A stretch of 64,000 nt of DNA. Source: Candidatus Syntrophocurvum alkaliphilum (lineage in GTDB: Bacteria > Bacillota > Syntrophomonadia > Syntrophomonadales > Syntrophomonadaceae). Below are positions 32,203 through 63,003 of the stretch, one piece after another (the first letter of the stretch is position 1; the number at the start of each line of letters is the position of its first letter). The notes below the pieces were generated by a model. The model had not been told where the DNA came from. It saw only the letters and a list, made by a program, of their open reading frames with translations, and made no database searches. Location of the stretch: contig NZ_CP046457.1 of NCBI RefSeq assembly GCF_009734445.1, positions 1,172,001 to 1,236,000 on the forward strand, read 5' to 3'. The position numbers and the translations under genes are program-made.

Positions 32203-34704
32203 CTATTTTAACTGCATATCATTTTCAGCTTTGTTCAGCAGAATTAAAAAACTATTCCAATCGTCTGTGTTTTTTTCAAATATTATATTATTAAATCTTT
32301 TTTGTAACTCTTTTATTTCTTCTTGTTTATCTAAAGAAGCTAGAAATGGATTTTCTCTATAGCCACAGTGGGTTATATCATTACGCAGTTCTTTTAATTG
32401 TTTCCAGAAATCGAGTATTTCTATATCCTTTGAGTTTGTTTTTACTAGCTCATTTAATAGATCATTATATTTATCACGGTATTTTTCAATTAAATAGCCT
32501 TCACCACTATAATTTGGATTATTAAGAATCAGTTTAGTTATTAACACTTCATGCATATTTGTCACTGCTTGCCAATATTGAGAATGATTTATTAACCATT
32601 CAACCAGATAACTATAGCGTTTATCAAATTCATTTTCATTTAGCTTTTCAAATTCATTTTCAAAACGTTCTAAAATTGGTATGTATGGTTTAGCCCATTG
32701 CTCTATTTCACTACTCATTTTAGTGTAGTCAATTTTTTCATATAATCCCATAACCTGCTTTAGTTTTTCACTATTATTAAAATTTAGACAGGAACTAATA
32801 TTTTCTAAGTTATTAGAAACTTTTTTCATTACTTTAGGTGTTAAGTCACTATTCCTCTGGTATGCTAATTGATGTTCATTATTTATTAGTTTTGCTAATA
32901 AGTTTTGGTCACCATAATCAATAAAATCATATATTCCTCGAATCCAATCTAGCATTGTTACAAAACGTGTTAAGTCAAATGTAGGAGATATCTTTACCCC
33001 ATCTTTATCTTTTCTTGCTTCATAAGCTCCATAATAAACTGCTTCTATAACACAATTTTTCACAACTTTTAAATAATAAATTGCAATTAAATTGATAAAA
33101 GGAATAGAACGAAAACCATGAGTAATATCAAATATTACCTTACTATTATCTTCTACATTATTAATAATACTAAAAAAGATATCCCATAATTCTTCCTCAT
33201 TACGACCATCGGGAATATCTACAAAGTTTAGTCTATCGTATTCGGTTAATTCATCTTCTAGTGCTTTTTTATGAATTCTTTTTGCAGCTTCAGTAACTAT
33301 TATTATAGTTTTATCAGGTTTTAATGCCTGAACTACCACCTTTTGAAACAACTTTGTTTCCACTCTAATATTCTCATCTTTTTTCTTAAATTCATAGGTT
33401 GCTACTCCATAGTCAGACGTTCCTAATGTACTTATTAGTATAGTTTTGTCTGTTTCTTTACTTAAATTAATATCTTTTAAGTTATCTGTTTGAGGCTGTT
33501 TGTTATTATCTGTTTCTAATAGAGATTTACCTGTTAGTATAGAGGTTAATTTATTCCAATCGTTTTTACCATTTTCATTTATTACTGATTTAAATCTAGC
33601 AAATATATTTTCTATAGATTTTTTATCAAAATTAGGAGAACTGTCTTTAAACCCGCAATGTGCTATAGCATTACGATAATCTATTAAATTCCCCCATAAA
33701 CTAATTATTTTTGGTTCTTTATTATTTTTTTTAAATTCTTCACTTAGTTTATTGGATATTTCTTCACGTTTTTTAAAGTCATATATCTCATTTTCACTAG
33801 AACCATATATCTTTATTAAGATTTTTGATATATAAAGTTCACGCATATAACTAAATGCTTGAGCATATTGCTCATGTGTTAACAGCCAATCAATTAAGTT
33901 TATAGAGCATTGAGCAAAATCACTGTCTACCATCATAGAAAAATCTTTTTCTATTTTTGCTAACATAGGATATAAGGGTTTAGCCCTTTTTTTTACTTCT
34001 GTTTCGATTTCGGTTCTATTGCTTTTTATATTGATACTATACTTAGTTAAAGCATCACTTAATTGCTTACTCCTACTAAAATGTAGACAGAGATCAATCT
34101 CTTGTAAATTATCTGCTAATTCATTTAAATATGTAATAGGCTCGTTATTTTGTTTCAAATCAATACTTTTTATTAATTCTACTATAACTTTACTATCACC
34201 ATATTTTATAAAATCTTCTAGACCTTTTATCCATTCTAATAAATCTGCAAATATACTCAAATCTACAGCAGGAGTTACTGGAACCCCTTTTTCAAAAGCT
34301 CCATAATAAACTCCATTAACAGTACAATTCTTAACTGCTCTTACATAAGCTATAAGTAAGGCTATTATCATAGGTATAGAACGGAATGAGTTAGTTATAT
34401 CAAATACTAGCTCCTCATTTTCACTTATTTCATTTATAAATATAGAAAAGATTTCCCAATACTCTTCTTCATTTTGCCCTTCTGGTATTATAACTGGTTT
34501 TATTGGTATATTGGTATCAAGATTTTCTATTAACAATTCCCAATTCTTTTCATATGCTCGATTAGTTAGAAAAACAATTACTTCAGTAGGTTTTTTGGCT
34601 TCGATTATAGCTTTTTGAAAAAAGGAAGTTTCTACACTTATTCCGTCAAACTCGTATACAGTTTTCTTATAATCTGTAGTTCCTAATAAACTAATTAACT
34701 TCAT
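32203..34704 (-). CDS. tandem CARF-HEPN effector (Csx1/TIGR02221-like, duplicated in one chain)
   Basis: The 833-residue protein is two copies of one unit. Copy 1 (about 1-390) has MKLISLLGTTDYKKTVYEFD, the CARF motif VFDITNSFRSIPMI and a HEPN-like motif RNAIAH (R-x4-H) near 345. Copy 2 (about 420-830) has ILISTLGTSDYGVATYEF, VIFDITHGFRSIPF (the DxTHG signature of TIGR02221/Csx2-type proteins) and RNDITH near 795. Csx1-type proteins normally dimerise to form one cOA pocket and one composite RNase site; here one chain supplies both halves. It is the last gene of the III-D operon, so it should respond to cyclic oligoadenylate made by Cas10. Both HEPN motifs look intact, while the CARF signature is degenerate (T-N-S) in copy 1. 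Confidence 0.8.
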   Translation of the reverse strand: MKLISLLGTTDYKKTVYEFDGISVETSFFQKAIIEAKKPTEVIVFLTNRAYEKNWELLIENLDTNIPIKPVIIPEGQNEEEYWEIFSIFINEISENEELVFDITNSFRSIPMIIALLIAYVRAVKNCTVNGVYYGAFEKGVPVTPAVDLSIFADLLEWIKGLEDFIKYGDSKVIVELIKSIDLKQNNEPITYLNELADNLQEIDLCLHFSRSKQLSDALTKYSINIKSNRTEIETEVKKRAKPLYPMLAKIEKDFSMMVDSDFAQCSINLIDWLLTHEQYAQAFSYMRELYISKILIKIYGSSENEIYDFKKREEISNKLSEEFKKNNKEPKIISLWGNLIDYRNAIAHCGFKDSSPNFDKKSIENIFARFKSVINENGKNDWNKLTSILTGKSLLETDNNKQPQTDNLKDINLSKETDKTILISTLGTSDYGVATYEFKKKDENIRVETKLFQKVVVQALKPDKTIIIVTEAAKRIHKKALEDELTEYDRLNFVDIPDGRNEEELWDIFFSIINNVEDNSKVIFDITHGFRSIPFINLIAIYYLKVVKNCVIEAVYYGAYEARKDKDGVKISPTFDLTRFVTMLDWIRGIYDFIDYGDQNLLAKLINNEHQLAYQRNSDLTPKVMKKVSNNLENISSCLNFNNSEKLKQVMGLYEKIDYTKMSSEIEQWAKPYIPILERFENEFEKLNENEFDKRYSYLVEWLINHSQYWQAVTNMHEVLITKLILNNPNYSGEGYLIEKYRDKYNDLLNELVKTNSKDIEILDFWKQLKELRNDITHCGYRENPFLASLDKQEEIKELQKRFNNIIFEKNTDDWNSFLILLNKAENDMQLK

Positions 34705-34724
34705 TATTCTCCACCCCTGTTTTT

Positions 34725-35243
34725 CTATTTTCGTTCCATTTTTTCTTTTAGGGCTTTGAGTTTGTCAAAATTTGCTTGGTTTAATGTTCCAGATGATTCA
34801 TTGTTATGATTATTATTAGTTTTATTATTTTTTTCTATTTGTACCTTATTATATAAAGGGATTGTATTCTCTTGTGCTAAGCGTGCTAACCAACCACTGT
34901 AGTAGCTTAATTCACTTATACTTGCACCTTGTAGCTCTTTTCTTAAAGTTTTTTTCTTTTTACTTAAACCAAAACCCATTTCTAAAACAGTTTCATATTG
35001 TTCTTTAGAGCCTCTACTAGCTTTTATTAAATGGGATTGTGGTATAGTTTGTAATGTTTTTATTATTTCTGATTCTTCAATACCGTCAGGGTTTTCTCTT
35101 TTTAATTGCATTAATATAGTATTTATATTTTGAAAAACACCATTGCCAATGTTGTTTTCTCTGCCTCTTTGGTCTATAAAAGTACCAAATCCAGGAGTAG
35201 AGATTACTTTTTCAGCTAATTTTAACATTTTTATATTTTGCAA
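34725..35243 (-). CDS. III-D operon protein of unknown family
   Basis: The 172-residue basic, mostly helical protein begins MQNIKMLKLAEKVISTPGFG and has IPQSHLIKASRGSKEQYETV and GASISELSYYSGWLARLAQE. It lies between the last RAMP gene (15 bases away) and the CARF-HEPN gene. I recognise no named family. Type III-D loci often carry small extra proteins such as Csx19, but I cannot confirm identity. An RNA-binding or assembly role in the complex is inferred from position and composition only. Confidence 0.5.
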   Translation of the reverse strand: MQNIKMLKLAEKVISTPGFGTFIDQRGRENNIGNGVFQNINTILMQLKRENPDGIEESEIIKTLQTIPQSHLIKASRGSKEQYETVLEMGFGLSKKKKTLRKELQGASISELSYYSGWLARLAQENTIPLYNKVQIEKNNKTNNNHNNESSGTLNQANFDKLKALKEKMERK

Positions 35244-35257
35244 AATTAATCTCCCCC

Positions 35258-36376
35258 TTAATATGTTTTATTTCCATCACGTATAGGCCAAGGATTACCA
35301 GCAGGATTATCCCAGTTTAATATATTACTTAATATATTAATATTTGTTTTTATATCTTTAGGAGCTTTTTCTCTATATTCTTTAGCAAGTGTTGTAAAAT
35401 CAAGCTCTTCTTTCTTTAAACCATAACGACTTTTAATATCTTCATACTTTTCAAAAGAAAATCTAACACTACCAAAATAAGCTGGTTTACCATAACCTAT
35501 TTTGGGGGTTATAGCTTTATCTAGTCCAAAAGAGAAAGCTAATAAAGACAGTTCTTCATAACTTAAATTATTTATTATTACACTACCAACAAGTGTTGTT
35601 CCCGCAGGTATGAATTCATGAGGAATACCATTTTTTCTTTCTTCTGTTTCTTTAGAATGATAATAAAACTTCCTACCCCGGAATCGGTAGTTTCGGGAGT
35701 TATTATTTAATAATTTTAGTTTTTCTAAATATTCTTCTTTGGTACAAGTATTGCATTTATCAAAATCATTACATACTTGACAATAATATAACCTTTCATT
35801 TCCATAGCCATTTTCGGGAAAGGGACGTAATCTATTTTTTGGATAGTCCTTTTTAAAAGGGCTTTGTAATTGTGGTAATAATCTGGTTTCTAACTTCACT
35901 TCTTCAATAGGTGAAAAATCTTCAAAAATAATTTGCCCTTTATAAGATACATCTCGTGAGCTAAAACCAAATAATCTACAACTTACACAGGCATCTTGTT
36001 TTTGGCATACAAATCTATTACTAGATGGTAAAGCTTGATTTAAAAACCTTTTTGGTGGTTGAGGAGCACATGAATATGATACTGATTCTGTAATACTGCG
36101 AATAGCCCCCTTAATGCCGGAACCGGGAATATAAACTCTATTATTTAACTCTGCAGTCATAACAGTAAAATCATTTTTATTATCTTCAAATCGGTATTTG
36201 CCCTGCGAAACATGGACTGGACTTAAGGTTTCCATTTTTAAAAACAATTTGCCGCTATATCTGTCTGGATGTATTTTATTATGACCTATGTATTTTTCAC
36301 TTTCCTTTTTTTCAAGTAGTGGAACAAATGCATACGGTTTTTCTGATAAAATGGTACCTTTACTCATGTTACCCAC
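35258..36376 (-). CDS. type III RAMP protein (Csm5-like/Csm3-like Cas7)
   Basis: The 372-residue protein has the RAMP core KLFLKMETLSPVHVSQGKYR, the glycine-rich loop YIPGSGIKGAIRSI, and CVSCRLFGFSSRDVSYKGQ. Near the middle a cysteine cluster (YYCQVCNDFDKCNTC) suggests a zinc-binding insertion. It is the most downstream RAMP and may cap the complex at the 3' end of the crRNA, like Csm5. It overlaps the upstream RAMP gene by eight bases. Assignment to Csm5 versus a further Csm3 paralogue is uncertain. Confidence 0.75.
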   Translation of the reverse strand: MGNMSKGTILSEKPYAFVPLLEKKESEKYIGHNKIHPDRYSGKLFLKMETLSPVHVSQGKYRFEDNKNDFTVMTAELNNRVYIPGSGIKGAIRSITESVSYSCAPQPPKRFLNQALPSSNRFVCQKQDACVSCRLFGFSSRDVSYKGQIIFEDFSPIEEVKLETRLLPQLQSPFKKDYPKNRLRPFPENGYGNERLYYCQVCNDFDKCNTCTKEEYLEKLKLLNNNSRNYRFRGRKFYYHSKETEERKNGIPHEFIPAGTTLVGSVIINNLSYEELSLLAFSFGLDKAITPKIGYGKPAYFGSVRFSFEKYEDIKSRYGLKKEELDFTTLAKEYREKAPKDIKTNINILSNILNWDNPAGNPWPIRDGNKTY

Positions 36377-37211
36377 CTACCTTTGTTAGGCTTTTACTTA
36401 CATCTACTTCATAAAGAGGACTGCCTTCTTCTAATAGTTCTTCCCAGCCATTTAGATTAGAAGTAAAATAATAAGCCTCTTTTTTATAGTCTAATTTTCC
36501 TCCTATATCTTCCTTTTCTCTACCTAGTAAAAAACCCTCTTTATTAGAACGATAATCTCTGATTTTTATCTTAATATCTGATACAGTGACTCTACCCATT
36601 CCACGTGTAGTGCCACCACCAATTCCATATAATCCATCATCTAAATCTTTTATAGCCCAAAGACTTAGTTTTAATTGTTTTAGTTCATAATTAGTCAAAA
36701 ATATAGAAACATTAAAAACAGCACTCTCTACTACTTCTTGGTCATATAAAGCACCCTGTTGAGCAGCTCCTGTAATGCGATTTATTCCTACACCTTTTTT
36801 TATGCCTGTAATCACTTCACCTATTGGATAAGCATCAGGAAAAGCTATTCTAGAAGCAGTTAAGGTACTACCAAATAATTGGCAAGCAAGGCACATGTTT
36901 TCATATTTTTCTTTTGCAGTATTATCACTTAATTCTTTTTGTTTATTTGAACAAGACTGGGAACTATTAGTAACATTACAGGTTACGCCCCCTAATAGAT
37001 TAATTATTTGTTCACAACGAGTTCTGATTACCCCTTTTAAACTTGCTCCTGGAATATATACACTTTCTTTTCCTCCATAAAAAGATCTAACACATTGCAT
37101 ATCTGGACGATTAGGCTCTAGTACATTTTCTTGACCACTTCGTATAGCTAAAGGGGAAACAGGTTTTATATTAAATGAGATTATGGCTTCATTTTTCAGA
37201 TCTTTAAACAA
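36369..37211 (-). CDS. type III RAMP protein (Csm3-like Cas7)
   Basis: The 280-residue protein has FNIKPVSPLAIRSGQENV, VYIPGASLKGVIRTRCEQI (the RAMP glycine-rich loop), CLACQLFGSTLTASRIAF and GIGGGTTRGMGRVTVSDI. These are hallmarks of Csm3-type backbone subunits, with a cysteine pair in the insertion. It lies two bases after the neighbouring Csm3 gene and overlaps the next gene. The Asp that cleaves target RNA in Csm3 is not obvious in the segment PNRPDMQ, so its RNase activity is uncertain. Confidence 0.75.
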   Translation of the reverse strand: MFKDLKNEAIISFNIKPVSPLAIRSGQENVLEPNRPDMQCVRSFYGGKESVYIPGASLKGVIRTRCEQIINLLGGVTCNVTNSSQSCSNKQKELSDNTAKEKYENMCLACQLFGSTLTASRIAFPDAYPIGEVITGIKKGVGINRITGAAQQGALYDQEVVESAVFNVSIFLTNYELKQLKLSLWAIKDLDDGLYGIGGGTTRGMGRVTVSDIKIKIRDYRSNKEGFLLGREKEDIGGKLDYKKEAYYFTSNLNGWEELLEEGSPLYEVDVSKSLTKVGG

Positions 37212-37213
37212 GC

Positions 37214-38122
37214 TTATCTCTCCCTTCCAGCATTAGATTCCAACACTTGTAGTAGTTGTTCAATAGATATATCATTGGCACCAATTTGCTCAACTGCTTT
37301 AAGTAAATCATCACGATTGTATGTTTGAGATTCAAGTGGCTTTATATCCACCTTTGCAAGCTCGTGTTCAAATATAAGTTTTTCTTCCTTTATAGTTTTT
37401 ACTCCAGAATTATTCTCATCTATATATGTTTTTGCAATAACAATATCTTCTAAATGAACTTTGCCTAGACCACGTGTGCTTTTCCCACCTAAAGAAATAT
37501 CTCCATTAGATAAAGCAAATAAAGCTAACAAAAAGTTATGCCATGTATCATCTTCTAAATTATCTGCAATAGCCTCGAAATGAAAAACAGTTCCAGCAGG
37601 TACAGCTTCAAAGTCATATAATAATCCTGATGATGCAGTTTTAGTATCTCGGTCTATAACTACTCCATTACGTGTTTCATAAAAACCAACCCATTTTTCA
37701 GTATCAACTGTTAAGTCTCTTAGTTTTACTTTTCCAGCATAGTTGTGATTTCCAAACAATCTACATACAGGACAAAGGCCTGTATATACCTCATAGGCAT
37801 TTTCTTCAGGACTTTTTTTGTTATTTTCTTTCCATTTTTCCAAACAAGGTTTTTTAACTATATCACATGCATCTGCCCCATCAGGTTTACCCCAATTAGC
37901 ATTTATAATTCTTTCCATAAATGAACGCCAACTACCTTTTAAAGAAGATGCTGGGATCAAGGGACGTTGTAAGCTATCCTTTATTACTGGACTATCACTA
38001 ATACTAGGACGAAAACCAGTCTCATCTCCACCAATATGTAATGCCGTATCACACACTAGGTAAGCAGTAATCTTATATCGATTGTGGAATTGATTTAGCA
38101 AATAGTGTATATTTTCACCCAT
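37214..38122 (-). CDS. csm3: Csm3-type backbone subunit
   Basis: The 302-residue protein has LVCDTALHIGGDETGFRPSI, then SDSPVIKDSLQRPLIPASSL with KGSW (glycine loop), CPVCRLFGNHNYAGKVKLRD and DISLGGKSTRGLGKVHLEDI. The Asp in DSPVIKD matches the conserved catalytic aspartate of Csm3, so target-RNA cleavage is likely. Its start overlaps the preceding gene by one base. A putative catalytic thumb loop VVIDRDTKTASSGLLYDFE is present. It probably polymerises along the crRNA together with the other RAMPs. Confidence 0.85.
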   Translation of the reverse strand: MGENIHYLLNQFHNRYKITAYLVCDTALHIGGDETGFRPSISDSPVIKDSLQRPLIPASSLKGSWRSFMERIINANWGKPDGADACDIVKKPCLEKWKENNKKSPEENAYEVYTGLCPVCRLFGNHNYAGKVKLRDLTVDTEKWVGFYETRNGVVIDRDTKTASSGLLYDFEAVPAGTVFHFEAIADNLEDDTWHNFLLALFALSNGDISLGGKSTRGLGKVHLEDIVIAKTYIDENNSGVKTIKEEKLIFEHELAKVDIKPLESQTYNRDDLLKAVEQIGANDISIEQLLQVLESNAGRER

Positions 38123-38616
38123 TATCGTTTACCTCCTCTGCCTTTTGGATTAGATTCTTTTTTCCCTTGTTGACGATTATTATCTGAATTAACAACATAA
38201 GAACCCTGCCAATAAACATAGCCCAAAAAGCGTTGGATTAGTTGATTTTCTATATTTTTTTTATTTATTTCTTCTGGTAAATCTATTTTTTCAACCTGAG
38301 TAATAATTTTTTCTATTTTTGACCACAGTACTTCACCCATTACTTTATTCTCACTACCACACACTTTTGCCCAACCTGAATTTTTATCTCTTCCAATTTT
38401 ATAAAAAATATAAGCCTTTAACTCTAACGCTACTGTCATTTGTAATGATGCTTCTAGTAATGTTCGGAGTTGTGTTATTCCAAATCCTCTACCTTTTATA
38501 ATGTTATCGATTCCAGAAGTATTAAAAAACTCTTCACATAATTTTAGTAAAAATTCACTTTGCTCATCTATTATTTGTTGTTCTAGTTGTTTTTGTTTAA
38601 TTTCATTAACTAACAT
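38122..38616 (-). CDS. Cas11-like small subunit of the III-D complex
   Basis: The 164-residue protein is mainly helical, with GFGITQLRTLLEASLQMTVA and ALELKAYIFYKIGRDKNSGW. These resemble the QIR-type helix of Csm2/Cas11 small subunits. The C-terminus is basic and glycine-rich (RQQGKKESNPKGRGGKR), fit for nucleic-acid contacts. It sits between Csx10 and a Csm3 gene, where III-D loci place a small subunit. The identity is inferred mainly from position, size and helicity. Confidence 0.6.
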   Translation of the reverse strand: MLVNEIKQKQLEQQIIDEQSEFLLKLCEEFFNTSGIDNIIKGRGFGITQLRTLLEASLQMTVALELKAYIFYKIGRDKNSGWAKVCGSENKVMGEVLWSKIEKIITQVEKIDLPEEINKKNIENQLIQRFLGYVYWQGSYVVNSDNNRQQGKKESNPKGRGGKR

Positions 38617-38621
38617 TACAA

Positions 38622-39845
38622 TTAATCCCTCCCTACTGAATACTTAACATGAAAATCATTACATATTATTATTTCCCCACAACCATTTTCTGTGTTTTTG
38701 CCTATGCCATTCGACTCTAAATTTACTAGCTTATTAATAAAGGAACCATCAACTAATTCTTTATTAAATGCTAAAACTATAACACTACCTGCTAATGTCC
38801 AAATAACTGGTGCAATCATTTTTTCTGCTGTACCCATACGAGTATCCCAACCTCGGCGTATTTCATATTCTCCAATAAAATCTATTAGTTCAAATTCTTC
38901 ATCTATTTCTATAAGGTTTAATGACTCCTTAATAGAGTTCTTTATAGCTTGCATATATTCATTATTACTATAATATTTATCAGTAGTAATATATTGGTCT
39001 AGGTTTAAATCTGCATCACTTTGCAAATCTAGACTTAAATATATTTTATCTTTTGATTTCTTTGTAATTTTTTTATTAAAAGCATTTATTCTCTCTTTTA
39101 AATTGCTAATTACATCAGTGTTATCAGTATAATAATCAATAATTCTACATTTACCTAATCCAGCACGTGTATATGCTCCAAACCTTAAAACATCAAAAGG
39201 AATTTTTAAACTCTGTTCATTTAAAGCAATATTTTCTGGTATATCCCATGTTGTTTCCATTAATAATCTTTGTTCTATACTTTGCCAATCAGCTATTGTA
39301 TCAATGGAATACAAACGTCCTTGTGCATTAGTGCCTGTTGTAGCATCAATACCACCTTTTGTAATCAGTTGTCGTTTGAACGATTGAGGTGTGTTTTTTT
39401 CATTTTTAAACTTTGTTGGTGGGCTTTCTAACCTTTCAGAACAGTCTGGACATACTAGTTTTTCAGCTTGAGTTGCATTTAAGCTTTTATGCAATAAATC
39501 AACTGGGCGATGACTACTGTTATACTTACACAGCAAACTTGTTTTAGACCAAGGACTACATCCTTTTGCTTTAATATTAGTCAATTTTATTTGGTCAAAG
39601 TTTTTACACCATGAAATATATGTGCATTTTTTACAATACTCACTATTTTTAAATTCTAAAATATTAGTAAATGTATTATCTTCATAATCTAACGCTATAC
39701 AATTATCAAGAATATGCTGTACTAATGAAGCACGCACAACATTACCCGGAATATATTCTAAAGAACGGATATAGTTGTTATTTTGTTTGCGACCACCAGC
39801 TAGCAAAGGGGATAATGCTTCGAAAATAATCTTGACTTTCATCAT
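38622..39845 (-). CDS. csx10: Csx10-like RAMP (Cas5-group subunit of type III-D)
   Basis: The 407-residue protein opens VKIIFEALSPLLAGGRKQNN and continues YIRSLEYIPGNVVRASLVQH, the RAMP start and glycine loop in the form seen in Csx10. Two cysteine clusters (CKKCTYISWC and CPDCSERL) suggest zinc binding. A second RAMP-like loop, FGAYTRAGLGKCRI, lies near 230. Csx10 replaces Csm4 in type III-D and holds the crRNA 5' tag next to Cas10. The gene overlaps the preceding RAMP by four bases (ATGA). Confidence 0.75.
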   Translation of the reverse strand: MMKVKIIFEALSPLLAGGRKQNNNYIRSLEYIPGNVVRASLVQHILDNCIALDYEDNTFTNILEFKNSEYCKKCTYISWCKNFDQIKLTNIKAKGCSPWSKTSLLCKYNSSHRPVDLLHKSLNATQAEKLVCPDCSERLESPPTKFKNEKNTPQSFKRQLITKGGIDATTGTNAQGRLYSIDTIADWQSIEQRLLMETTWDIPENIALNEQSLKIPFDVLRFGAYTRAGLGKCRIIDYYTDNTDVISNLKERINAFNKKITKKSKDKIYLSLDLQSDADLNLDQYITTDKYYSNNEYMQAIKNSIKESLNLIEIDEEFELIDFIGEYEIRRGWDTRMGTAEKMIAPVIWTLAGSVIVLAFNKELVDGSFINKLVNLESNGIGKNTENGCGEIIICNDFHVKYSVGRD

Positions 39846-40516
39846 GCACTTCCCCCTTCACTGATATCATTTATTTCATATTCTTTTTCATTCACAAAAA
39901 ATCTAGGAGTTATATTTACCCAACCTAAACCCCTAGTTTGATTTCCTCCTAGCGTTCTTATATGTTCAATAGATAAACGGAGTAAGTTAATTTGCTGATC
40001 TATACTGACAGTATTTAATCTCAATGAACCTTCAAAACTACCGGCAAAAGCTATAGCCTCACTAGGTGAAAATACCTCTTGATTAAATAAGAGTTTATTA
40101 CCAGCTACACCCCTTTGTCGCTCTATAGTAACACCCCTTCTAGGCATCATTAAGGAAGCAATATAGCTTTCAGACATGTTATCTAAAACAGGATATAAAT
40201 TATCAAAATATAAAGCCCCCGGATATGTGTTTCCTGCTGCTCCAAAATATGCGCAGACTATACAATTTTTGCAGGGTTCATTACCATTGACATCATTATT
40301 GCAAACCTCAATATCTAAAGCTCTAGCCATTATAGTGGTATTATACCTCATTCTACCTTTTATAGTTGTCCCAGGAACAAATGGAATATTTCTAGCATCC
40401 CTTAAAACATAAGAATCCATAATCCCAGCCAAACCTGTACCAGAACTAATACTATATGCTGAATCAAACCTAGCTTCAAGCTCTACTTTTAATCTAGTTG
40501 GCATTTTTCTCATCAC
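39842..40516 (-). CDS. type III RAMP protein (Csm3-like Cas7)
   Basis: The 224-residue protein has LKVELEARFDSAYSISSGTG, FVPGTTIKGRMRYNTT (glycine loop), CKNCIVCAYFGAAGNTYPGA and IRTLGGNQTRGLGWVNITP. All are hallmarks of the compact Csm3 fold. It overlaps the cas10 end by 23 bases, and the start is a GTG in GTAGGTG context. As the first RAMP after Cas10 it is a backbone subunit. The segment GIMDSYVLRDARN carries an Asp that could be catalytic. Confidence 0.8.
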   Translation of the reverse strand: MMRKMPTRLKVELEARFDSAYSISSGTGLAGIMDSYVLRDARNIPFVPGTTIKGRMRYNTTIMARALDIEVCNNDVNGNEPCKNCIVCAYFGAAGNTYPGALYFDNLYPVLDNMSESYIASLMMPRRGVTIERQRGVAGNKLLFNQEVFSPSEAIAFAGSFEGSLRLNTVSIDQQINLLRLSIEHIRTLGGNQTRGLGWVNITPRFFVNEKEYEINDISEGGSA

Positions 40517-42635
40517 CTACTTTCGGGCTATCTTCTGTATAACTCCATATTTCTAACATATCACTCCAAGGTGTATATAGAATTTCATCTTTCATTCCTT
40601 TTTTGAAAAATGGTTCATCACTAATGAAGTTAAAACCTATTTGTATTTTATTTAATGCACTAACTATACGTTCTCTTTCCTTATTCTTTAATCTCCATAC
40701 ATTATATAAATAATAAAGTTTAAATTCTTCGCGAGTCATTTGGAGTTGTGCCTGCATAAATCTGTATATCAAAGATTTTTTACTCTTTGCCTCATCATTA
40801 GTTTCAGATAGTATATGAATTGCATCAGTAAGTGCTTCTGTTTCTAGCCAAGTAAGTGGCATTAAGCCATTACTTTTAAGTAAATTTGCTTTTTCTTTGC
40901 GAAGTGAAAGAATATCATCAGTGAAGCTACCACTAGATTCAATAACCATTAAATCTAAAGTGCCATTTTTCTTTTCCTTTTCTCGTAATACTTGTGATCG
41001 TTTTTTAGCATTTTTAAGTAAAGCCTTACAGTTATCAAACATGTGAATAAGTGGGAAATTATATCTAGCTATAACCACACCAGCAGAAAGGGTGATAGCT
41101 TCTTTATCTGAGGAAAGGTTCCGAAAGCTATCATCAAAGAATTTGCCCATTTGAACAGTTAAGGAGATTGCTCGAGATGCAGGTACATACATTAAAACAT
41201 CGTCTCCGCCCAAAGCTATTATCTCAGCTTTTAAATCTGGCATAACTAAACTCAATGCTTTATATACAGCTTCTTTAGTGACTTTTTCTGTCTTATCACT
41301 AAATGTTTTACTAGCTACTAAATTATCTAGAGACATTACAATTTGTCCCATGTTATTACCATCAGCATATATTAATGCAATATGATTATTATTAGAATCT
41401 TGCTTAGCTAAACCTTCTAAATGCTGTGGTAAGTTCAATTCTTTTGGTTTTGGTATAGAGTTCAGTTCACAATAGTAAAAATATTCCTTATAATAACTTT
41501 TTCTACCTAGATGGGCACCAGCTAATACTCGATGATAACATGATGAGCAAAGATATTCTTCTTCATCTAATAATCTTTTCTTATATGCTTTGCGCATATT
41601 ACAGTGAGAACATAATGTATCATCTTTACAAAAACTATAAGAATCAGTAATTTTATCATTTTCATCACTTAATCCTGCATTAATATCATTTAAGTTGTTG
41701 TCGTGATGAATAATAGGTATTTTAATCCTCTGTCTTCGTTTTAGTTGTTCTTCTAATTTTGCAAGGGTTCTTCTATATTTTTCCCCTAACCACAACATAG
41801 CAATATTAATTGTAATATGTGCTGTACTACACTGAGCTGTAACACTAACCTGTCGGTGTAGAGTTTCAATTTCTTGAGTTAGCCTTTTTCCTTCCCCGGC
41901 AGGGACAATTGCTAAAACACTTCCACCACCAGCATAAACTACAGACTCAGGAACAAAGAGGTTTCCGATTAGATGTGGAATTCGTTCACGATTTAGAATA
42001 TCTAGTATCCGGCTAGCACCTCGAATATTAGGCAATTTATTTGTTTCTAAAAAATACTCTTTAACTTTTACTGCACTATATTTAACTATATCAACCTCAT
42101 GAAGAAGGTTTTTGCTTTCACTTTTTCCTGTAATACAGTTATCAACTAATGAGGTCATCTGTACTAAGTTATTATCTTTATTTGCAAAATCACCTAGTTC
42201 TCCCAAACAATCACTTAATAAAAAATCTCTTATTTTTTCGTCCCATTGCTCTCTATCCGACTTGTTTAATAGAGCATAAACTAAACCTATTCTAATTTGT
42301 ATCCAATCAATCCATGGCCAAAATATACCTTTTGCTCGTTCTGGTTCTAAAGCTTGTGCAGGAACATCTAGTATCAAATTAATTAATTCAAGCTTAGTAT
42401 TTTGATTATTGATTAAATCTTTATAACCCTTATGCAAGGAATTAGACTTAATATAGTTTGAAAAATATTGCTTTATTTCATCTTTAATTATTTTTAAATC
42501 TTCTTTTTTCAAGTAATAGTTTGTTTTTGTCAATGGATCTTGCCATTTAATTGCTTCATTTGGTATTTGCTTTTCCTTAGCTATTTTTTCGATAATTCCA
42601 TCACGCTTTAATTTAAACCAATCAATACAATACAA
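40494..42635 (-). CDS. cas10: Cas10 (type III-D-like), cyclase-competent, no HD domain
   Basis: The 713-residue protein starts at TTG 42635, eight bases after AAAGGAG; a GTG at 42644 overlaps the site. There is no N-terminal HD nuclease motif. The zinc finger has CSHCNMRKAYKKR and CSSCYHR (near 345-375). The first palm is IALIYADGNNMGQIVMSLDN (near 425). The second palm carries EIIALGGDDVLMYVPASRA (near 475), the GGDD motif of an active cyclic-oligoadenylate synthase. Thus target-RNA binding should produce cOA messengers, while single-strand DNA cutting by Cas10 is unlikely. It heads an eight-gene operon. A sigma-H-like promoter lies about 400 bases upstream. Confidence 0.85.
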   Translation of the reverse strand: MYCIDWFKLKRDGIIEKIAKEKQIPNEAIKWQDPLTKTNYYLKKEDLKIIKDEIKQYFSNYIKSNSLHKGYKDLINNQNTKLELINLILDVPAQALEPERAKGIFWPWIDWIQIRIGLVYALLNKSDREQWDEKIRDFLLSDCLGELGDFANKDNNLVQMTSLVDNCITGKSESKNLLHEVDIVKYSAVKVKEYFLETNKLPNIRGASRILDILNRERIPHLIGNLFVPESVVYAGGGSVLAIVPAGEGKRLTQEIETLHRQVSVTAQCSTAHITINIAMLWLGEKYRRTLAKLEEQLKRRQRIKIPIIHHDNNLNDINAGLSDENDKITDSYSFCKDDTLCSHCNMRKAYKKRLLDEEEYLCSSCYHRVLAGAHLGRKSYYKEYFYYCELNSIPKPKELNLPQHLEGLAKQDSNNNHIALIYADGNNMGQIVMSLDNLVASKTFSDKTEKVTKEAVYKALSLVMPDLKAEIIALGGDDVLMYVPASRAISLTVQMGKFFDDSFRNLSSDKEAITLSAGVVIARYNFPLIHMFDNCKALLKNAKKRSQVLREKEKKNGTLDLMVIESSGSFTDDILSLRKEKANLLKSNGLMPLTWLETEALTDAIHILSETNDEAKSKKSLIYRFMQAQLQMTREEFKLYYLYNVWRLKNKERERIVSALNKIQIGFNFISDEPFFKKGMKDEILYTPWSDMLEIWSYTEDSPKVGDEKNAN

Positions 42636-43096
42636 GCACTTCACTCCTTTCGTTTATTTCTAATATTTTTTAAGTTTACTGTATATAATGTTTAATTACC
42701 TCTTTATTTTATATCATGGCTTATATTTCCAGTAACTTTGACAATAATGTGCCTTATATAAATAAAAAGTTATATTTATATTGAAGTACAGTAAAAAGAA
42801 TGAACTGTCCTAAGGCATAACTATTAATAAAACCTAAGTGTTTTACGAGTATGTAATGTCGTAATAAATAGTACAAAAGCAAGTATATGGGTTAATGCTA
42901 AGTATATAAAAAACTAATCAATTAATTTATACTGGTATTATGAGATAAATTATTACATGTTATTTGTAACCTACAGGATTGTAGAACAATCATAAAATCA
43001 CCTGCCCATTATATGACTAATACCATCATGATTCTGCATAATTTCACTAAATCCTGCCAAAAAGTACTAGTAGTCTAATACTTTTTTCCTAAATTG
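42636..43096. other. regulatory region upstream of the III-D operon
   Basis: About 460 gene-free bases hold a sigma-H-like promoter at 43031-43055 (entered separately). They also hold a weak inverted repeat (TTTACTGTA near 42675 and TACAGTAAA near 42788) that could be an operator, and a plus-strand GTCGTAATA near 42869 that recalls part of the 17-base motif. The long untranslated leader suggests post-transcriptional control. Confidence 0.5.
43031..43055 (-). promoter_or_regulatory. sigma-H-like promoter upstream of cas10
   Basis: The minus strand reads AGGATTT, 14 bases, GAAT. This is the spacing expected for sigma-H (RNAGGAWWW, 11-12 bases, RNNGAAT). It reads toward cas10. Confidence 0.55.
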
Positions 43097-57648: not shown

Positions 57649-57867
57649 ATTTAATAAATATATCATTTCCTTAAATTCTTCTTTTATTTCATTTCATAAG
57701 TTTAAAAGGAGCTATAACTTCTGCTCTGTGCCCAAAGCTTCTAATTAATGGTTTTATCTCTCTAAATCCATTAATTATTATTTTATAATCCAAATAATTT
57801 TCATTCTCTATATATTTCTCCCCCATCTATCTTGTGTGATTACTCGTTCTTTTAAAAGGGTATTGTT
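57649..57867 (-). pseudogene. degenerate 3' end of a second copy of the WYL regulator gene
   Basis: The reverse strand matches the last 70-75 codons of the WYL gene at 55409. It encodes segments like NYLDYKIIINGFREIKP and LIRSFGHRAEVIAPFKL, but with frameshifts and in-frame stops. It stands in the same place relative to array 5 as the intact gene does to array 4. It is therefore the remnant of a tandem duplication of the block promoter-array-leader-WYL. Confidence 0.85.
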
Positions 57868-57886
57868 TAAGTAGATATTTCCAAAA

Positions 57887-57926
57887 ACAACCAAGCTTTG
57901 TTATTAGTTATTAAACAAAGCTTGGT
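57887..57926 (-). terminator. terminator of the GGDEF gene
   Basis: CCAAGCTTTGTT (57891-57902) pairs with AACAAAGCTTGG (57914-57925), a 12-bp stem followed by TTGTTTTTGG on the minus strand. Confidence 0.8.
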
Positions 57927-57942
57927 AACAATCCTTGTATTT

Positions 57943-58713
57943 TTAGTTAATCTTTTGTTTATCTAAATACATTCTTTTATCAGCTAGTTGTAATAATTTT
58001 TCTATATCAACACTATCATCAGGATATGCAGATATACCAATACTCAAACTCAAATCAATATCGTGTGGCCAATTATAATTCGTTATGTTATTTTGCAACC
58101 TATGTTTGATTTTTAACGCTTCATCACTTGATGTATTAGGTAAAATTATAATAAATTCATCTCCACCATACCGGGCAATGATATCATTTTTACGACAATG
58201 GTATTTTAGATATTTAGCTACTTCATATAGAATTAAATCTCCTTGTAAATGACCAAACATATCGTTATATAATTTAAATTGATCTAGGTCTAAAAACATT
58301 ATACTTAAGTTGCAGTTTTCTTTACTGTTATGTTTTTTCATATTTTGTAGTATTTTTAATGCCTTATCTCGAGTGTATATCTTAGTAAGTGAATCATATG
58401 ATAACTTTTTTATTAAGACCCCTTTTTCTTGAAGTAAATATATATATATCAATAAAAATCCTATGGTTATTGATAAAGTAAATATGAGCTCACAATGTCT
58501 AGTTACATCAAGCATCACACTTGCTATTCCTGCTAATGTACCAATTATGAAAAAAATATATCCAATACTCTCTAAATAGCTACTTTTTTTATATGATTTA
58601 TATTTATCTCTATTACCCCAAAAATAACTAAATATTGCTACAATTAATAACAGTATTCTACTAACTAATAAAATAATTTTCACTCCCTCCTGTTTAAAAT
58701 AAGTTATTTGCAT
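57943..58713 (-). CDS. membrane GGDEF diguanylate cyclase
   Basis: The 256-residue protein has three or four membrane segments (about 11-30, 47-68, 73-92). A complete GGDEF domain follows, with SYDSLTKIYTRDKALKIL, IMFLDLDQFKLYNDMFGHLQ, the active-site RYGGDEFIIILPNTS and LSLSIGISAYPDDSVDIEKL. The intact GGDEF signature indicates cyclic-di-GMP synthesis. An AGGAGG lies inside the N-terminal frame close to a GTG, so the true start may be about nine codons downstream of 58713. It sits within the CRISPR locus, and a copy of the 17-base motif lies 34 bases upstream. It may be a bystander or a signalling gene under the same control. Confidence 0.85.
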   Translation of the reverse strand: MQITYFKQEGVKIILLVSRILLLIVAIFSYFWGNRDKYKSYKKSSYLESIGYIFFIIGTLAGIASVMLDVTRHCELIFTLSITIGFLLIYIYLLQEKGVLIKKLSYDSLTKIYTRDKALKILQNMKKHNSKENCNLSIMFLDLDQFKLYNDMFGHLQGDLILYEVAKYLKYHCRKNDIIARYGGDEFIIILPNTSSDEALKIKHRLQNNITNYNWPHDIDLSLSIGISAYPDDSVDIEKLLQLADKRMYLDKQKIN

Positions 58714-58773: not shown

Positions 58774-58814
58774 TGCGTAAAAAAACTACCTGTTGATATA
58801 TCAATAGGCAGTTT
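58774..58814 (-). terminator. terminator of the Can1-like operon
   Basis: AAACTACCTGTTGATA pairs with TATCAATAGGCAGTTT with G-T type mismatches, a 16-position stem. The minus strand continues with seven T residues, right after the gene ending at 58842. Confidence 0.8.
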
Positions 58815-58841: not shown

Positions 58842-61061
58842 TTATAATATAGCTTTTTTTAATATATTGTAATCATGCTTAATATCAGAATACTTAATTA
58901 ATTTAATCCTCATAGCAATTGCTGTTTCTTTGAGATCAGTAAAATTATTCTTAGGTTCATTGTAGTATACTAAGATTTTGTTTACAAAAGTACCACCTAA
59001 AAGGTCCCCATAAACTTCTAACTCTTCTAATGCATTTAGTTGCCAGTTCCCAATTTTACATGAAATAATTGTTAGGCGAGAATTACAGCTTAATACTACA
59101 TCTAGTTCATTATTGGGTGGATCTATATCAGATAAACTCCAATCAAAAGATAAACTTACCTTTATATCATCAACTTCAGGAAAGTCTTTAACAGTGAAGT
59201 ATGTATATAATTCAAGGGGAGTTCCCTCTTTTTTTAGTATGCTTTTGTAATTACTAAAACTATTTGTTTCTTCAAGTTCTGGTTTTTTATTATCTTTAAT
59301 TTCATATTTATTAACAATACCTAATTTTTTTAATCCTGATAACAGTTTATTATCGATTCTAGATAATAATTCGGGATTATTTATACGTGAGAATATTGCT
59401 CTCCAACTTTCAATATATTTAAAAACTAAGTCCACATATTCTCTTAATGTTTTTTCATGTTTTAATACTTCTGTTGTTTCTTCTGATTTTATTTTTACTC
59501 TACATAGCTTGATATAATCATCTATAATTAGTTTTGGTAATAAATCATTTCCATCTAGGAAATGTAAATCAGTTTGACCAGTGTTTAGAATTACTCCATT
59601 TTGTGTATCAACATATATAATATGAGAGTTCTTTTCTACCCCAGCTTGTAATACACCAAAAGACATAGGTTTAGTGCCAGTGGTTGCATTAATTATAGTA
59701 TTGTTATTACCATATTCATTTATGATTTCTTTGCTTATTTTATAACTAACTGTTGCATCAAATGAATCAGTTACCCGAATATAAATGTTTGTATTTGGTA
59801 ATTTATTTTTTATAGTATCGCTTAGGTTCTCCATTAGTTTTATAAAACGAAATTCTTCTGTAAATATAAAATAAATATTGCGGGGTTTAAATTTTAAAAC
59901 AGCTAAATAATTAGGTATTATTTGGTCACTTATTAGTAAAACCATACATTCTACACCTTGCCTCGAAGGTGTTTCAGGTAATAAAACTTTTTCTATTATT
60001 TTTTCAGGATATTTATTTACAATATTGGCTTTAAGTATATTAATTCCCATACGGCTAGCTCTTTTTTGAAATTTATCTTTTCTACTTATATCACTATCCA
60101 TCACTAGAGTTTTGTTAGTAAAGATACCAGCTATATTTCGGGCTTCATTTTCTATAGAATTTAAATATTCAGTTGTAGCTTTATAATCATTAGCATAGCG
60201 AATTATATTTAATTGAGAATTTGTACTTATATATAATTCAGAATAATTATTGATACCAATATCATCTATATTTTTGTGATTCATTAATTTATAAAAGGAG
60301 TATATTAATGATGGCATGTAAGGTTTAAAAAACCAATGCCTAACATCTTTATTAATAATACATTCAATATGATCAGAGTTTATGTTTAATTTGTTTGTTT
60401 TTATAAAGTTAACTTTACTAAGTAAAAATATAATTGATGTATATATTGAAGGAATAAGGAGTTCTGTTTTATTGTAATTATCTTCTTTATTAAAATATTT
60501 GCAAAAATCTTTCCATTTATCATTCATGTTTACAATGTCATTAATAATTTGCTCTAAATGTGGTCTTTTTTCTTTTAAGAAATTATTTAATGTTTCATCA
60601 TAAGCTTTTCCTCTAAGTCTAATAAAGTGATGGATACTTAGCTTTGGTAAATATCCATCTATATCACCTGTTCTCATATTTAAAAAACAGTTGTTATCTG
60701 TATTTACATAAATAATGTGGGCATCCATTTCAAAACCTGCTTGAAATGCTCCAAAAGACATGAGTTTTGTGCCACCAGTAACATTTATAATAGTTTTTTG
60801 GTTTTCATTTTTTAATATCTCCAAACAAGTATTATAACTAGAAGTTGGATCTAAAGTTTGTAGTTTTTTTTCGATAAATTTAACTTCATCGATTTCTTCA
60901 GAAATAGTAGTTTTTAGGTCATTTTTGAGTTTGATCATTCGTTCTTCTTTACTATGAATAAAATAGATAGTGTTTGGTCTATAGTGCATAACACTTAATA
61001 AATTAGGAATTGTTTGGTCACTGATTAATATAATCATTGATAAATATTTTTTACTTGTCAT
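58842..61061 (-). CDS. Can1-like dual-CARF nuclease effector
   Basis: The 739-residue protein is two copies of a CARF-nuclease unit, as in the monomeric cA4-activated nuclease Can1. CARF 1 (about 8-135) has MIILISDQTIPNLLSVMHYR and IINVTGGTKLMSFGAFQAG. A degenerate nuclease-like region ends with FTNKTLVMDSDI. CARF 2 (about 375-510) has MVLLISDQIIPNYLAVLKFK and IINATTGTKPMSFGVLQAG. The C-terminal nuclease has NELDVVLSCNSRLTIISCKI (Glu, Asp and Lys of a PD-(D/E)XK site) and FVNKILVYYNEP. In copy 1 the matching site is SELYISTNSQLNIIRYAN, so the Asp and Lys are lost. cOA binding should activate the intact nuclease. It is co-transcribed with the membrane SAVED/CARF-like gene. Confidence 0.8.
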   Translation of the reverse strand: MTSKKYLSMIILISDQTIPNLLSVMHYRPNTIYFIHSKEERMIKLKNDLKTTISEEIDEVKFIEKKLQTLDPTSSYNTCLEILKNENQKTIINVTGGTKLMSFGAFQAGFEMDAHIIYVNTDNNCFLNMRTGDIDGYLPKLSIHHFIRLRGKAYDETLNNFLKEKRPHLEQIINDIVNMNDKWKDFCKYFNKEDNYNKTELLIPSIYTSIIFLLSKVNFIKTNKLNINSDHIECIINKDVRHWFFKPYMPSLIYSFYKLMNHKNIDDIGINNYSELYISTNSQLNIIRYANDYKATTEYLNSIENEARNIAGIFTNKTLVMDSDISRKDKFQKRASRMGINILKANIVNKYPEKIIEKVLLPETPSRQGVECMVLLISDQIIPNYLAVLKFKPRNIYFIFTEEFRFIKLMENLSDTIKNKLPNTNIYIRVTDSFDATVSYKISKEIINEYGNNNTIINATTGTKPMSFGVLQAGVEKNSHIIYVDTQNGVILNTGQTDLHFLDGNDLLPKLIIDDYIKLCRVKIKSEETTEVLKHEKTLREYVDLVFKYIESWRAIFSRINNPELLSRIDNKLLSGLKKLGIVNKYEIKDNKKPELEETNSFSNYKSILKKEGTPLELYTYFTVKDFPEVDDIKVSLSFDWSLSDIDPPNNELDVVLSCNSRLTIISCKIGNWQLNALEELEVYGDLLGGTFVNKILVYYNEPKNNFTDLKETAIAMRIKLIKYSDIKHDYNILKKAIL

Positions 61062-61086
61062 AATAGTCTCCTATTAAATAATAGAT

Positions 61087-61620
61087 TTAATTTGGTCTTT
61101 GCATAGGTCCCCAACATTCATAACCTTTATTGGGAGTGTTTTGGTATATCAGAGTTGATGTCATATTACTAAGTTCTGCACCAATTACTGCTGCTAACAT
61201 TATAGGACCTGCCATAAACAAATGTATTTTATCTACACCTTTTTTTTGTATCTGGCTTTTTGATTTTCTAATATCCTTAACTATTTTATCAATATTACTA
61301 TTATTGATTTCATAATTATGGCTATAATATATAATCATGTCTTTTGGAATTGTACCGTTTCTTTTAAACTGTTCAAATTCAGGTTGATTAGCAATGTAAT
61401 TTTCTACTTGTGCTTGAATATCTTGATCTACTAAAGCATCTACTATTAAAAATACTGGTCTTTGTCCTGGCTCTCTCCTTATCCTTTCTAGCTCTTGTTT
61501 TCTTTTCTTAGTAACAGTTATTAGTAGCCATAAAGCATATAAAACTGGTATAAATGCAATGATGCTAGTAATTGAACCGATGTAAGAAACAATGTCTAAG
61601 TAGGGCATATAAACCTCCAT
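61087..61620 (-). CDS. membrane-anchored SAVED/CARF-like sensor (Cam1-like candidate)
   Basis: The 177-residue protein has one N-terminal membrane helix (about 10-36, SYIGSITSIIAFIPVLYALW). A cytosolic Rossmann-like domain follows with RPVFLIVDALVDQDIQAQVE, KDMIIYYSHNYEINNSNIDK and the C-terminal VDKIHLFMAGPIMLAAVIGA then TLIYQNTPNKGYECWG. The HLFxAGPxxLAxxIG and terminal LIYQN pattern resembles SAVED domains, which bind cyclic oligonucleotides. One membrane helix plus such a sensor is the plan of Cam1-type and other TM effectors, which open a pore or depolarise the membrane when cOA binds. It starts 25 bases upstream of the Can1-like gene. Function is inferred from architecture and context. 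Confidence 0.6.
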   Translation of the reverse strand: MEVYMPYLDIVSYIGSITSIIAFIPVLYALWLLITVTKKRKQELERIRREPGQRPVFLIVDALVDQDIQAQVENYIANQPEFEQFKRNGTIPKDMIIYYSHNYEINNSNIDKIVKDIRKSKSQIQKKGVDKIHLFMAGPIMLAAVIGAELSNMTSTLIYQNTPNKGYECWGPMQRPN

Positions 61621-61684: not shown

Positions 61685-62422
61685 CTACCTGGCAATAATA
61701 TCAGGAAGTTCCTTATATGGAGTTAAAGTAAACTCTTCTTCTAAACCTACTACTCTATGAATCATGGGTCCTGTTTGATTAGTTTCAAGACAACTAACGT
61801 TTTCTGTAAAACTAATCTCTATGTCTCTTTTATATACTTTATTTGGTTTTAATCCAAGATCGTTTTCTTTTTCAGGTTTTAAATAAATTATACCTTGAAC
61901 AGCATTTTGATTTTTTGCATTATTATAAACTAAATGAGTAACACTCACAAAAGATGCGTTACATATATTTAAATGTTCCTCATAGTATTCTTCAGCTACT
62001 TCTTTCCCGAAAAAGCACAACCTACCAGTTTCAATAAAATCTTCTGACATTAATTCATATGAAGAGCGGTAGTCACCGTCGCCTATATCACGACCAATTA
62101 CTGTATAACTTCTATGAATGCCATCGTCTTCCTGAAATGGATCATTATTAATATCTTTATACTTTGGGTAATCTTTAAACCTTTCATAGTCTTCTAAGGT
62201 AAAACCAGGCATAATTTCATCATTTTCTATAGCAAACAGTTTGCTTAAGCATTTATTTTTAAAATCCTCTGCTGTCAATGACTCTATAAAATCTATCTGG
62301 CTTTCATGACTGGTTTCATTTTCTTCTTTCTTCTGCCCATTATCAGAGCAAGAGCATCCTGACACCATGAATATTATTATTAATATCATGATTGATAAAA
62401 CGTTTAATTTATTATTTTTCAT
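61685..62422 (-). CDS. lipoprotein of unknown function
   Basis: The 245-residue protein starts at ATG 62422 after AAAGGGAG; a longer in-frame start lacks a site. A lipoprotein signal (MKNNKLNVLSIMILIIIFMV then SGCSC lipobox, Cys near 24) leads to a charged linker rich in E. A soluble domain follows, with PGFTLEDYERFKDYPKYKDI and VIGRDIGDGDYRSSYELMSE. The protein is exported and lipidated on the outer face of the membrane. I recognise no named domain. It lies upstream of the CARF operon but is not clearly part of it. Confidence 0.65.
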   Translation of the reverse strand: MKNNKLNVLSIMILIIIFMVSGCSCSDNGQKKEENETSHESQIDFIESLTAEDFKNKCLSKLFAIENDEIMPGFTLEDYERFKDYPKYKDINNDPFQEDDGIHRSYTVIGRDIGDGDYRSSYELMSEDFIETGRLCFFGKEVAEEYYEEHLNICNASFVSVTHLVYNNAKNQNAVQGIIYLKPEKENDLGLKPNKVYKRDIEISFTENVSCLETNQTGPMIHRVVGLEEEFTLTPYKELPDIIAR

Positions 62423-63003
62423 AAACATCTCCCTTTGTAAATTCAATTTTTACATATCCTTTAATGAGGAATTGAACTAAGTTAGATTCCTCTAATATGT
62501 CATTTGTATCAACCTTGGTAATAACTTGTTTTATGTCCCTTCCCTTTTAATGGCAGATTTTATATGTTTGCATATACTCATCTCCCTTAAAGTTTTTTTA
62601 TAAATTATAATCAAATATTAATCAGGATATATAATTTTTATCTTATATATCCAACTTAGCATAAGATAAGAAAACTTATTGCTATTTAAAGCCTAGGTTC
62701 TATTTCCCACCCCCTTATTTAAGAAAAAATTATAACTATGTTTATATAATAAAACCCAATTATTCTTTTAACTATGACAAATGTATTACAATAATATAAT
62801 TAATACTTCATTTAATTAATTAAATCTAATAATTAATTGTATACGCCATAATATGCCAATAACCTCTTAAAAATAGTAAATTCTTACTAATAAGTGGATA
62901 TTTTTTATTAAACATTGTAATAGATTTGTCCTAATAACCATTTATAAATTTGATATAATATGAAAAATTAGAAGATTTCAAAAAATGAGCTGGGTGACGC
63001 AAA
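62423..63003. other. intergenic region, nothing recognised
   Basis: About 580 A/T-rich bases separate the lipoprotein from the divergent cca gene. A few inverted A/T tracts are visible, but I see no gene, repeat or recognisable RNA. Confidence 0.6.

Follow-up and report, generated by a model that had tools for sequence, protein, structure and literature searches.

A tandem CARF nuclease fusion and a membrane-anchored half-SAVED protein as a candidate effector pair of type III CRISPR signalling in Candidatus Syntrophocurvum alkaliphilum

Can1 (TTHB155 of Thermus thermophilus; Protein Data Bank (PDB) 6sce) carries CARF, nuclease-like, CARF and nuclease domains in this order in a single chain and has been reported as limited to Thermus (PMC6981274, PMC9704534). 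The Can2 and Card1 proteins (DUF1887; PDB 7bdv, 6wxw, 8bao and 8q3y) are described as single-unit homodimers (PMC9704534). In a 64,000-nucleotide stretch of Candidatus Syntrophocurvum alkaliphilum (contig NZ_CP046457.1, positions 1,172,001 to 1,236,000, hereafter the window), taken from a genome of one contig and 2.36 Mb, we found two adjacent genes, P0002 and P0001, that can be compared with these systems. Judged from profiles and alignments, P0001 appears to be a second, independent fusion that reached the layout of Can1 from inside the Can2/Card1 family, and P0002 to be a membrane helix followed by half a SAVED domain. The initial annotation of this DNA had proposed a tandem CARF nuclease with a membrane SAVED partner in an apparent operon, and as a whole this observation is borne out by the profile matches and by the alignment of the two halves of P0001.

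By its profile matches, P0001 consists of two homologous units of CARF and PD-(D/E)XK nuclease domains in one chain, which confirms the internal duplication proposed before. The halves align pairwise with 31% identity over 339 columns (E 2e-34), and the Card1 CARF model PF23400 matches two stretches of the protein above its cut-off (E 8e-30). The Card1 endonuclease model PF09002 also scores above its cut-off and matches the C-terminal half only (E 1e-10). A family profile from which unit 1 had been left out nevertheless aligns with residues 8-357 of that unit (E 9e-45, search of one sequence), and because it covers this range the second domain of unit 1 can be taken by homology as a degenerate nuclease domain. 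Against solved structures the family profile gave VC1899 (E 1.8e-40), Can2 (7bdv, E 1.6e-39), Card1 (E 8e-21) and Can1 (E 1.9e-7), and Foldseek with the predicted model gave Can2 (E 2.2e-13), Can1 (6sce, E 4.2e-11) and then more Can2, VC1899 and Card1 entries. This model, predicted together with two relatives, has a mean pLDDT (predicted local distance difference test) of 50 and a pTM (predicted template modelling score) of 0.33 and is trustworthy only in the CARF domains (blocks with pLDDT 53-89); nuclease domain 2 is mostly below 50, and the model shows neither the fold of domain 1 nor how the halves are arranged. A comparable fusion is Csm6-2 (CARF-HEPN-CARF-HEPN), where, as in P0001, a dimeric CARF effector was made monomeric by duplication and fusion. 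Unlike P0001, Csm6-2 is described as a HEPN ribonuclease activated by cA6 and not of the PD-(D/E)XK fold (PMC11229360).

The likeness to Can1 lies in the tandem layout, with a first nuclease site without the canonical residues and an intact-looking second one, and in the lysine of CARF 1 (K90 in Can1, K99 in P0001 by motif). To this extent the description of P0001 as Can1-like stood, but descent from Can1 did not. The first half of P0001 had no significant match to the first half of Can1 (E 2.3), and the second halves share 20% identity (E 1.4e-6). The nearest single-unit relative (L006, contig LFTO01000024 of the Clostridiales metagenome-assembled genome DTU086), which is Can2-type, is 32% identical to the second half (E 4e-52) and 27% to the first (E 2e-33). 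In a tree of 24 rows the two halves of P0001 are sisters, though not firmly (88/79), this relative joins them next (97/92) and the Can1 halves stand elsewhere. Approximately unbiased (AU) tests rejected each of the alternatives, namely the first half with Can1a (p 0.0054), the second half with Can1b (p 0.0055) and all four halves together (p 0.0004), although the long Can1 branches (Can1a 4.8, Can1b 2.9) weaken any tree and call for caution. Because the tree groups the halves with L006 and the AU tests reject common descent with Can1, the fusion appears to be independent. In the sequence of T. thermophilus HB8 Can1 (L060, 22021-23931) we read ECK at residues 556-558, whereas Glu560 and Lys562 are the published positions; E541, D543, K90, R206 and R249 agree.

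The nuclease site of unit 2 reads E652-x-D654...S667-C-K669 (ELD...SCK) with a helix residue E680, Ser667 replacing the acid of the canonical (D/E)xK. The E-x-D...E-x-K arrangement of the second Can1 domain is not found here, and a standard E-x-K site was ruled out by the alignment. This site had been called complete; it is intact-looking, with E652, D654 and K669 present, but it is an S-x-K...E variant without the canonical acid. For Can1 and Can2, mutation of the first two acids of E-x-D...E-x-K is reported to abolish activity (PMC6981274, PMC7969007), and for Cdn1 the same is reported for each of three acids, one of them that of ExK (PMC12825302). We scored the active site in 30 rows of the family alignment, namely all 34 rows except unit 1 of P0001 and three rows that contain gaps. 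Serine stands at the position of the (D/E)xK acid in 23 of the 30, all 23 of these have Glu at the helix position of E680, and 16 of the 23, from at least 13 genus codes, retain the Lys of SCK and so the whole S-x-K...E pattern. The remaining seven rows have Glu in the strand, with Lys (two rows) or Gln (four rows) at the helix position; the seventh is Can1, where the helix alignment is ambiguous and a Glu lies nearby. As read from printed alignments, the canonical proteins 1xmx, 7bdv and 8bao have ECK and Lys at the helix position, whereas 8q3y, a solved Can2, combines Ser with the helix Glu and is also altered at the lysine position (S...T), a more rearranged site. A rearranged active site in the Can2/Card1 family may already have been described with 8q3y. 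In CCGG-family restriction enzymes the acid is reported to have moved, giving a PD...K...D/E permutation (PMC6344858, PMC551604), and the DNA-bound structures given as nearest to the Can1 nuclease are those of AgeI and NgoMIV (PMC6981274). Site 2 of P0001 looks like this permuted form, with E680 putatively standing in for the acid lost at S667.

In unit 1 the six catalytic positions of the family alignment are occupied by P250, Y273, E275, R288, A290 and S302. For R288, A290 and S302 the same reading comes from two profiles that did not include unit 1, and these set R288-Y-A290 opposite SCK. With the family alignment and both profiles in agreement here, a complete site in unit 1 was judged unlikely. 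The initial annotation had the first site without Asp and Lys; Glu, Arg and Ala do stand at the Asp, Ser and Lys positions in the family alignments, but the loss of the Lys depends on the alignment.

The residues reported to bind cA4 in both Can1 and Can2 are Ser19, Thr42, Lys99 and Tyr118 (PMC7969007), and all four have aligned counterparts in both halves of P0001, with S37 in place of Thr in unit 1. The Can2/Card1 proteins share these contact residues, and Lys and Tyr are present in both CARFs of P0001, whereas the second CARF of Can1 aligns Thr at the lysine position. Among the 34 aligned rows, all four positions (with Thr or Ser at the second) are kept in five, namely the two halves of P0001 and the relatives L004, L006 and L008. 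VC1899, which does not have these contact residues, is reported as not active in vitro (PMC7969007). Because the residues occur in both CARFs, the alignment supports one cA4 site formed within a single chain of P0001, and the pocket residues favour cA4 as its ligand. Five SCK-type nucleases (L011, L016, L017, L020 and L039) have a CARF-like domain in which the lysine and tyrosine of the cA4 contacts are missing (the contact positions read N S P V/I E), and these probably answer to another ligand or to none.

P0002 likely starts at the second ATG, because GGAGG sits just 5' of it, and would then have 173 residues. It scores above both curated SAVED cut-offs (PF18145 with 36.9 bits against 26.2; NF033611 with 38.4 against 33), and in PADLOC it matches SAVED_TM (PDLC02011, E 7e-31) and the family 'CARF, 2 TMs' (transmembrane segments; PDLC01160, E 2e-32). 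Its strongest hydrophobic stretch is followed by KKRKQELERIRR, so by the positive-inside rule the sensor is probably cytosolic. The model of P0002 alone (pLDDT 64) shows one long helix and one Rossmann-like unit, as had been expected of the membrane protein. VIA-align placed residues 52-175 on one half of Cap5 SAVED (residues 285-401; Z 9.7, root-mean-square deviation 2.8, 107 aligned) and P0002 also on AcrIII-2 residues 115-234 and on the CalpL and Cap14 SAVED domains. Some rows, however, fall on the N-terminal SAVED half, and with a Z of 8.4 for Argonaute the SAVED identity would not be settled by structure alone.

A normal SAVED domain is described as holding two CARF-like domains (PMC12751052). 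The soluble part of P0002 comprises about 125 residues and one unit, and we read the protein from its profile matches as one membrane helix and one CARF-like unit that corresponds to half of a SAVED domain. The previously proposed membrane helix with a SAVED/CARF-like domain was thus confirmed and refined. If P0002 binds a ring it must self-associate to enclose it, and Cap1, with a small CARF-like domain that is reported to form a tetramer on a membrane pore, offers a precedent (PMC12642688). The families SAVED4 SAVED_TM and 'CARF, 2 TMs' and the TM-SAVED protein Cap14 of CBASS likewise combine a membrane segment with SAVED, and P0002 has the N-terminal membrane helix of these kinds but differs in its one clear helix and one CARF-like unit. 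With the type III membrane effectors Cam1, Cap1 and Csx23 it shares a small membrane domain and a cytosolic ring-sensing domain; their sensors belong to other families, whereas that of P0002 is SAVED-derived.

Both open reading frames lie on the minus strand at the coordinates given previously (61087-61620 for 177 residues and 58842-61061 for 739), with the start of P0002 amended as above. The features are collected in Table 1. A 25-nt gap on the same strand and the terminator behind P0001 support one operon, so the layout agrees with the co-transcription proposed earlier, though with P0002 shortened. The terminator hairpin has -13 kcal/mol and a z of -3.35 and was equalled by 1 of 200 shuffles; a separate simple terminator scan missed it. 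A promoter was not located, as promoter-like sites in the region (43) were not in excess over shuffles (39.5, standard deviation 5.9).

Table 1. Positions of the cassette, its domains and the type III-D locus in the window (all coordinates refer to the 64,000-nucleotide stretch)
Feature	Position	Strand	Remarks
P0002	61087..61608	-	First gene of the pair; likely 173 residues from ATG 61608 (previously 177 from 61620)
Membrane helix of P0002	61510..61575	-	Residues about 16-37 (177-residue numbering), strongest hydrophobic stretch; helix 5-48 in model
Single CARF-like unit of P0002	61090..61467	-	Matches C-terminal part of SAVED: PF18145 119-186/190, NF033611 185-252/261
P0001	58842..61061	-	739 residues, fused tandem CARF-PD-(D/E)XK nuclease; second gene of the pair
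CARF 1 of P0001	60612..61061	-	cA4-contact positions S14, S37, K99, Y118 (T121)
Nuclease-like domain 1 of P0001	59967..60611	-	Degenerate; six catalytic positions as in the text (family alignment)
CARF 2 of P0001	59457..59966	-	cA4-contact positions S378, T401, K464, Y483 (T486)
Nuclease domain 2 of P0001	58845..59456	-	Presumed active; E617, E652, D654, S667-C-K669, helix E680 (PF09002, conservation)
Intrinsic terminator 3' of P0001	58779..58814	-	Hairpin 58783-58814, then U tract
Type III-D locus	32203..42644	-	Cas10, Csm3-like and Cas5-IIId/Csx10 subunits, Csm2, tandem Csx1; presumed signal source
Cas10 with GGDD	40494-42644	-	GGDD at 479
Tandem Csx1	32203-34704	-	833 residues, TIGR02221/Csx1, CARF-HEPN-CARF-HEPN fusion

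The type III locus in the window is called III-D because of its Cas5-IIId/Csx10 and Csm2 matches. Its own effector is the tandem Csx1, another fused CARF effector besides P0001, with halves that are 35% identical (E 5e-83) and both R-x4-H motifs kept (RNAIAH and RNDITH). Csx1, Can1-2 and the membrane effector Cam1 are reported together in three loci, and loci tend toward one ring species, mostly cA4 (PMC11229360). By analogy, Csx1, P0001 and P0002 would make up a trio of this kind in which the membrane protein is of the SAVED type rather than Cam1.

Taken together, we consider it probable that P0002 and P0001 are a cassette of two ancillary effector genes that serves type III CRISPR signalling. 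We infer that the III-D Cas10 would detect foreign RNA and produce a cyclic oligoadenylate, most likely cA4, one molecule of which would be held between the two CARFs of P0001, acting as a one-chain pseudo-dimer. Binding would bring degenerate domain 1 and active domain 2 together around nucleic acid, and the single metal-dependent site, with D654 and K669 in their usual places and E680 replacing the acid lost at S667, would, like those of Can1 and Can2, be expected to nick DNA, cut single strands or both. P0002 would bind this ring, or a related one, through at least two copies of its half-SAVED domain and perturb the membrane. It is possible, though we put it forward only tentatively, that the pair is a self-contained cassette, can be separated from the cas10 operon and senses the ring in two opposite ways. 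The nuclease would have joined its otherwise dimeric CARF within a single chain and kept one permuted site, while its partner, which has half a SAVED domain instead of the usual two fused units, would self-assemble around the ring, and one signal would give both one-site DNA damage and membrane failure.

Several observations weigh against parts of this cassette reading. The pair shares its strand with cas10 but is 16-18 kb away from it, type I-B genes and arrays lying in the interval, and its functional link to the III-D locus is therefore drawn from homology; the gene of the nearest relative (L006/L036), by contrast, belongs to a cas10 operon and begins at the final base of a cmr6-like gene (as identified from the open reading frames). 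The model of P0001 is poor beyond the CARFs, and neither the intramolecular pocket nor the active site is seen in it. The association of Ser and Glu is clustered on the tree, with three to four changes and one to three independent pairs, and is not significant; with so few independent pairs the swap is not statistically provable. Can1 itself has retained ECK, and a Glu stands a few residues away on the same helix. Pairwise alignments of the halves open a gap of four residues and place D292-Y-K294 (60180-60188, minus strand), four residues downstream, opposite SCK, which is why the loss of the Lys is alignment-dependent. This DYK could be chance or the remnant of a shifted (D/E)xK, and site 1 may not be wholly dead; we take unit 1 as inactive, with slight doubt. 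P0002 is without half of a normal SAVED domain, and with its model Foldseek found nothing that reached E 0.001; an Argonaute came first (2.2e-3), followed by AcrIII-2 and Cap4 SAVED. As only one genome was seen to have the pair, it is a sample of one.

Other explanations of the two genes were weighed. A true Can1 ortholog that moved out of Thermus by horizontal transfer would explain the same domain order, the degeneration of the same half and the Foldseek match to 6sce, but the weak identities between the halves and the Can1 halves, the grouping with L006, the AU tests (with the caution due to the long branches) and the ECK kept in Can1 make this extremely improbable, and orthology was ruled out on the identities and AU tests. 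That both nuclease sites are dead and P0001 is a cA4 sponge or scaffold is unlikely: unit 1 is degenerate and unit 2 has no (D/E)xK acid, but L006 keeps E617, E652, D654, K669 and E680 throughout, and the S-x-K...E pattern conserved in the 16 rows resembles that of active CCGG-family restriction enzymes.

The remaining alternatives concern the partnership. P0002 might tether the nuclease to the membrane, or complete a mixed CARF-SAVED pocket, in one complex with P0001, as its half SAVED domain, its one membrane helix and the shared apparent operon would allow; with both pocket halves already carried by P0001, and with PDLC01160 standing in PADLOC as its own family of 172 positions, we regard this as quite unlikely. 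An accidental neighbourhood, with P0002 serving a CBASS-like or other signal and a different cyclic nucleotide rather than the III-D system, fits the use of TM-SAVED proteins as CBASS effectors (Cap14, 3TM-SAVED structures) and the lack of a conserved pairing among what we searched. However, no CD-NTase was noticed by eye among the open reading frames of the window (no profile search was made), and the two genes share a terminator and are separated by 25 nt, so that chance proximity is rather doubtful. The cassette of type III signalling remains the explanation we prefer.

With regard to novelty, P0001 searched against 101 genomes matched two, its own and a weak partial match in G078. The family PDLC01880 matched 51 of 398 genomes of the phylum, and among the matches listed only the frame in the window carries two units, judged by open frame; one other matched frame, in G300, exceeds 700 codons, and there the nuclease part alone was matched. 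A scan of contigs with two nuclease peptide patterns gave one relative among 187 candidate stretches, and it is single-unit. Viral scans with P0001, A3 and P0002 gave no relatives; the one with A1 yielded a single, distant protein of the canonical ECK type (L037). In tblastn against plasmids, P0001 and P0002 each had one partial match and L004 had none. PDLC01160 matched two of the 398 phylum genomes (its own and a weak partial in G262, E 4.8e-4) and PDLC02011 one of 63, its own. Weak partial matches aside, the fused nuclease and the TM-half-SAVED protein thus occur in this genome only among the sampled relatives and phylum. A limited literature search found no paper on this pair, nor any on TM-SAVED with CRISPR. 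The pairing had been proposed as possibly undescribed; it rests on one genome, the TM-SAVED families having matched no other apart from the weak partial match in G262, and combinations of a nuclease with a membrane effector (Can1-2 with Cam1) are already reported (PMC11229360). On a plasmid of Deinococcus sp. QL22 (L038, NZ_CP097155.1) three annotated SAVED-domain genes, one of 336 bp, occupy a stretch of about 12 kb close to a patatin-like gene.

Some neighbouring genes were also observed. Upstream of P0002, on the same strand, a putative lipoprotein gene identified by eye (61685-62446) could share its transcript, and just 3' of the terminator a GGDEF diguanylate cyclase gene (57943-58713, minus strand) lies between the CRISPR arrays and the CARF nuclease. 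At 54825-57900 a CRISPR array and the 3' end of a WYL regulator gene (55409-56746) are duplicated, the downstream copy spanning 421 bp with 89.8% identity and a broken coding frame. Beyond the end of the III-D locus, a Csx15-like protein (29960-30340; PADLOC E 3e-35) and a WYL protein (30345-31160) are encoded on the minus strand, and between its cas10 and the CRISPR array a DUF697 membrane protein (43097-44101, minus strand; PF05128, E 2e-6) is a possible further membrane component. Two near-alike HIT-like proteins (14345-14731 and 27843-28250, minus strand) each lie 5' of a same-strand helicase-like gene, as judged by eye.

What we regard as real, on the sequence evidence, is the convergent Can1-like fusion with a putatively permuted site and a half-SAVED membrane partner, to which cA4 and the two activities are assigned by prediction. 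For annotation it matters that an ExK-based search would label P0001 as dead. If the reading holds, the locus would be a natural test both of a permuted PD-(D/E)XK site in a ring-activated nuclease and of half-SAVED cyclic-nucleotide sensing at the membrane. One-chain CARF nucleases with one degenerate half would then have evolved at least two times, which suggests that one active site with one scaffold half may be a favoured endpoint for type III effectors.

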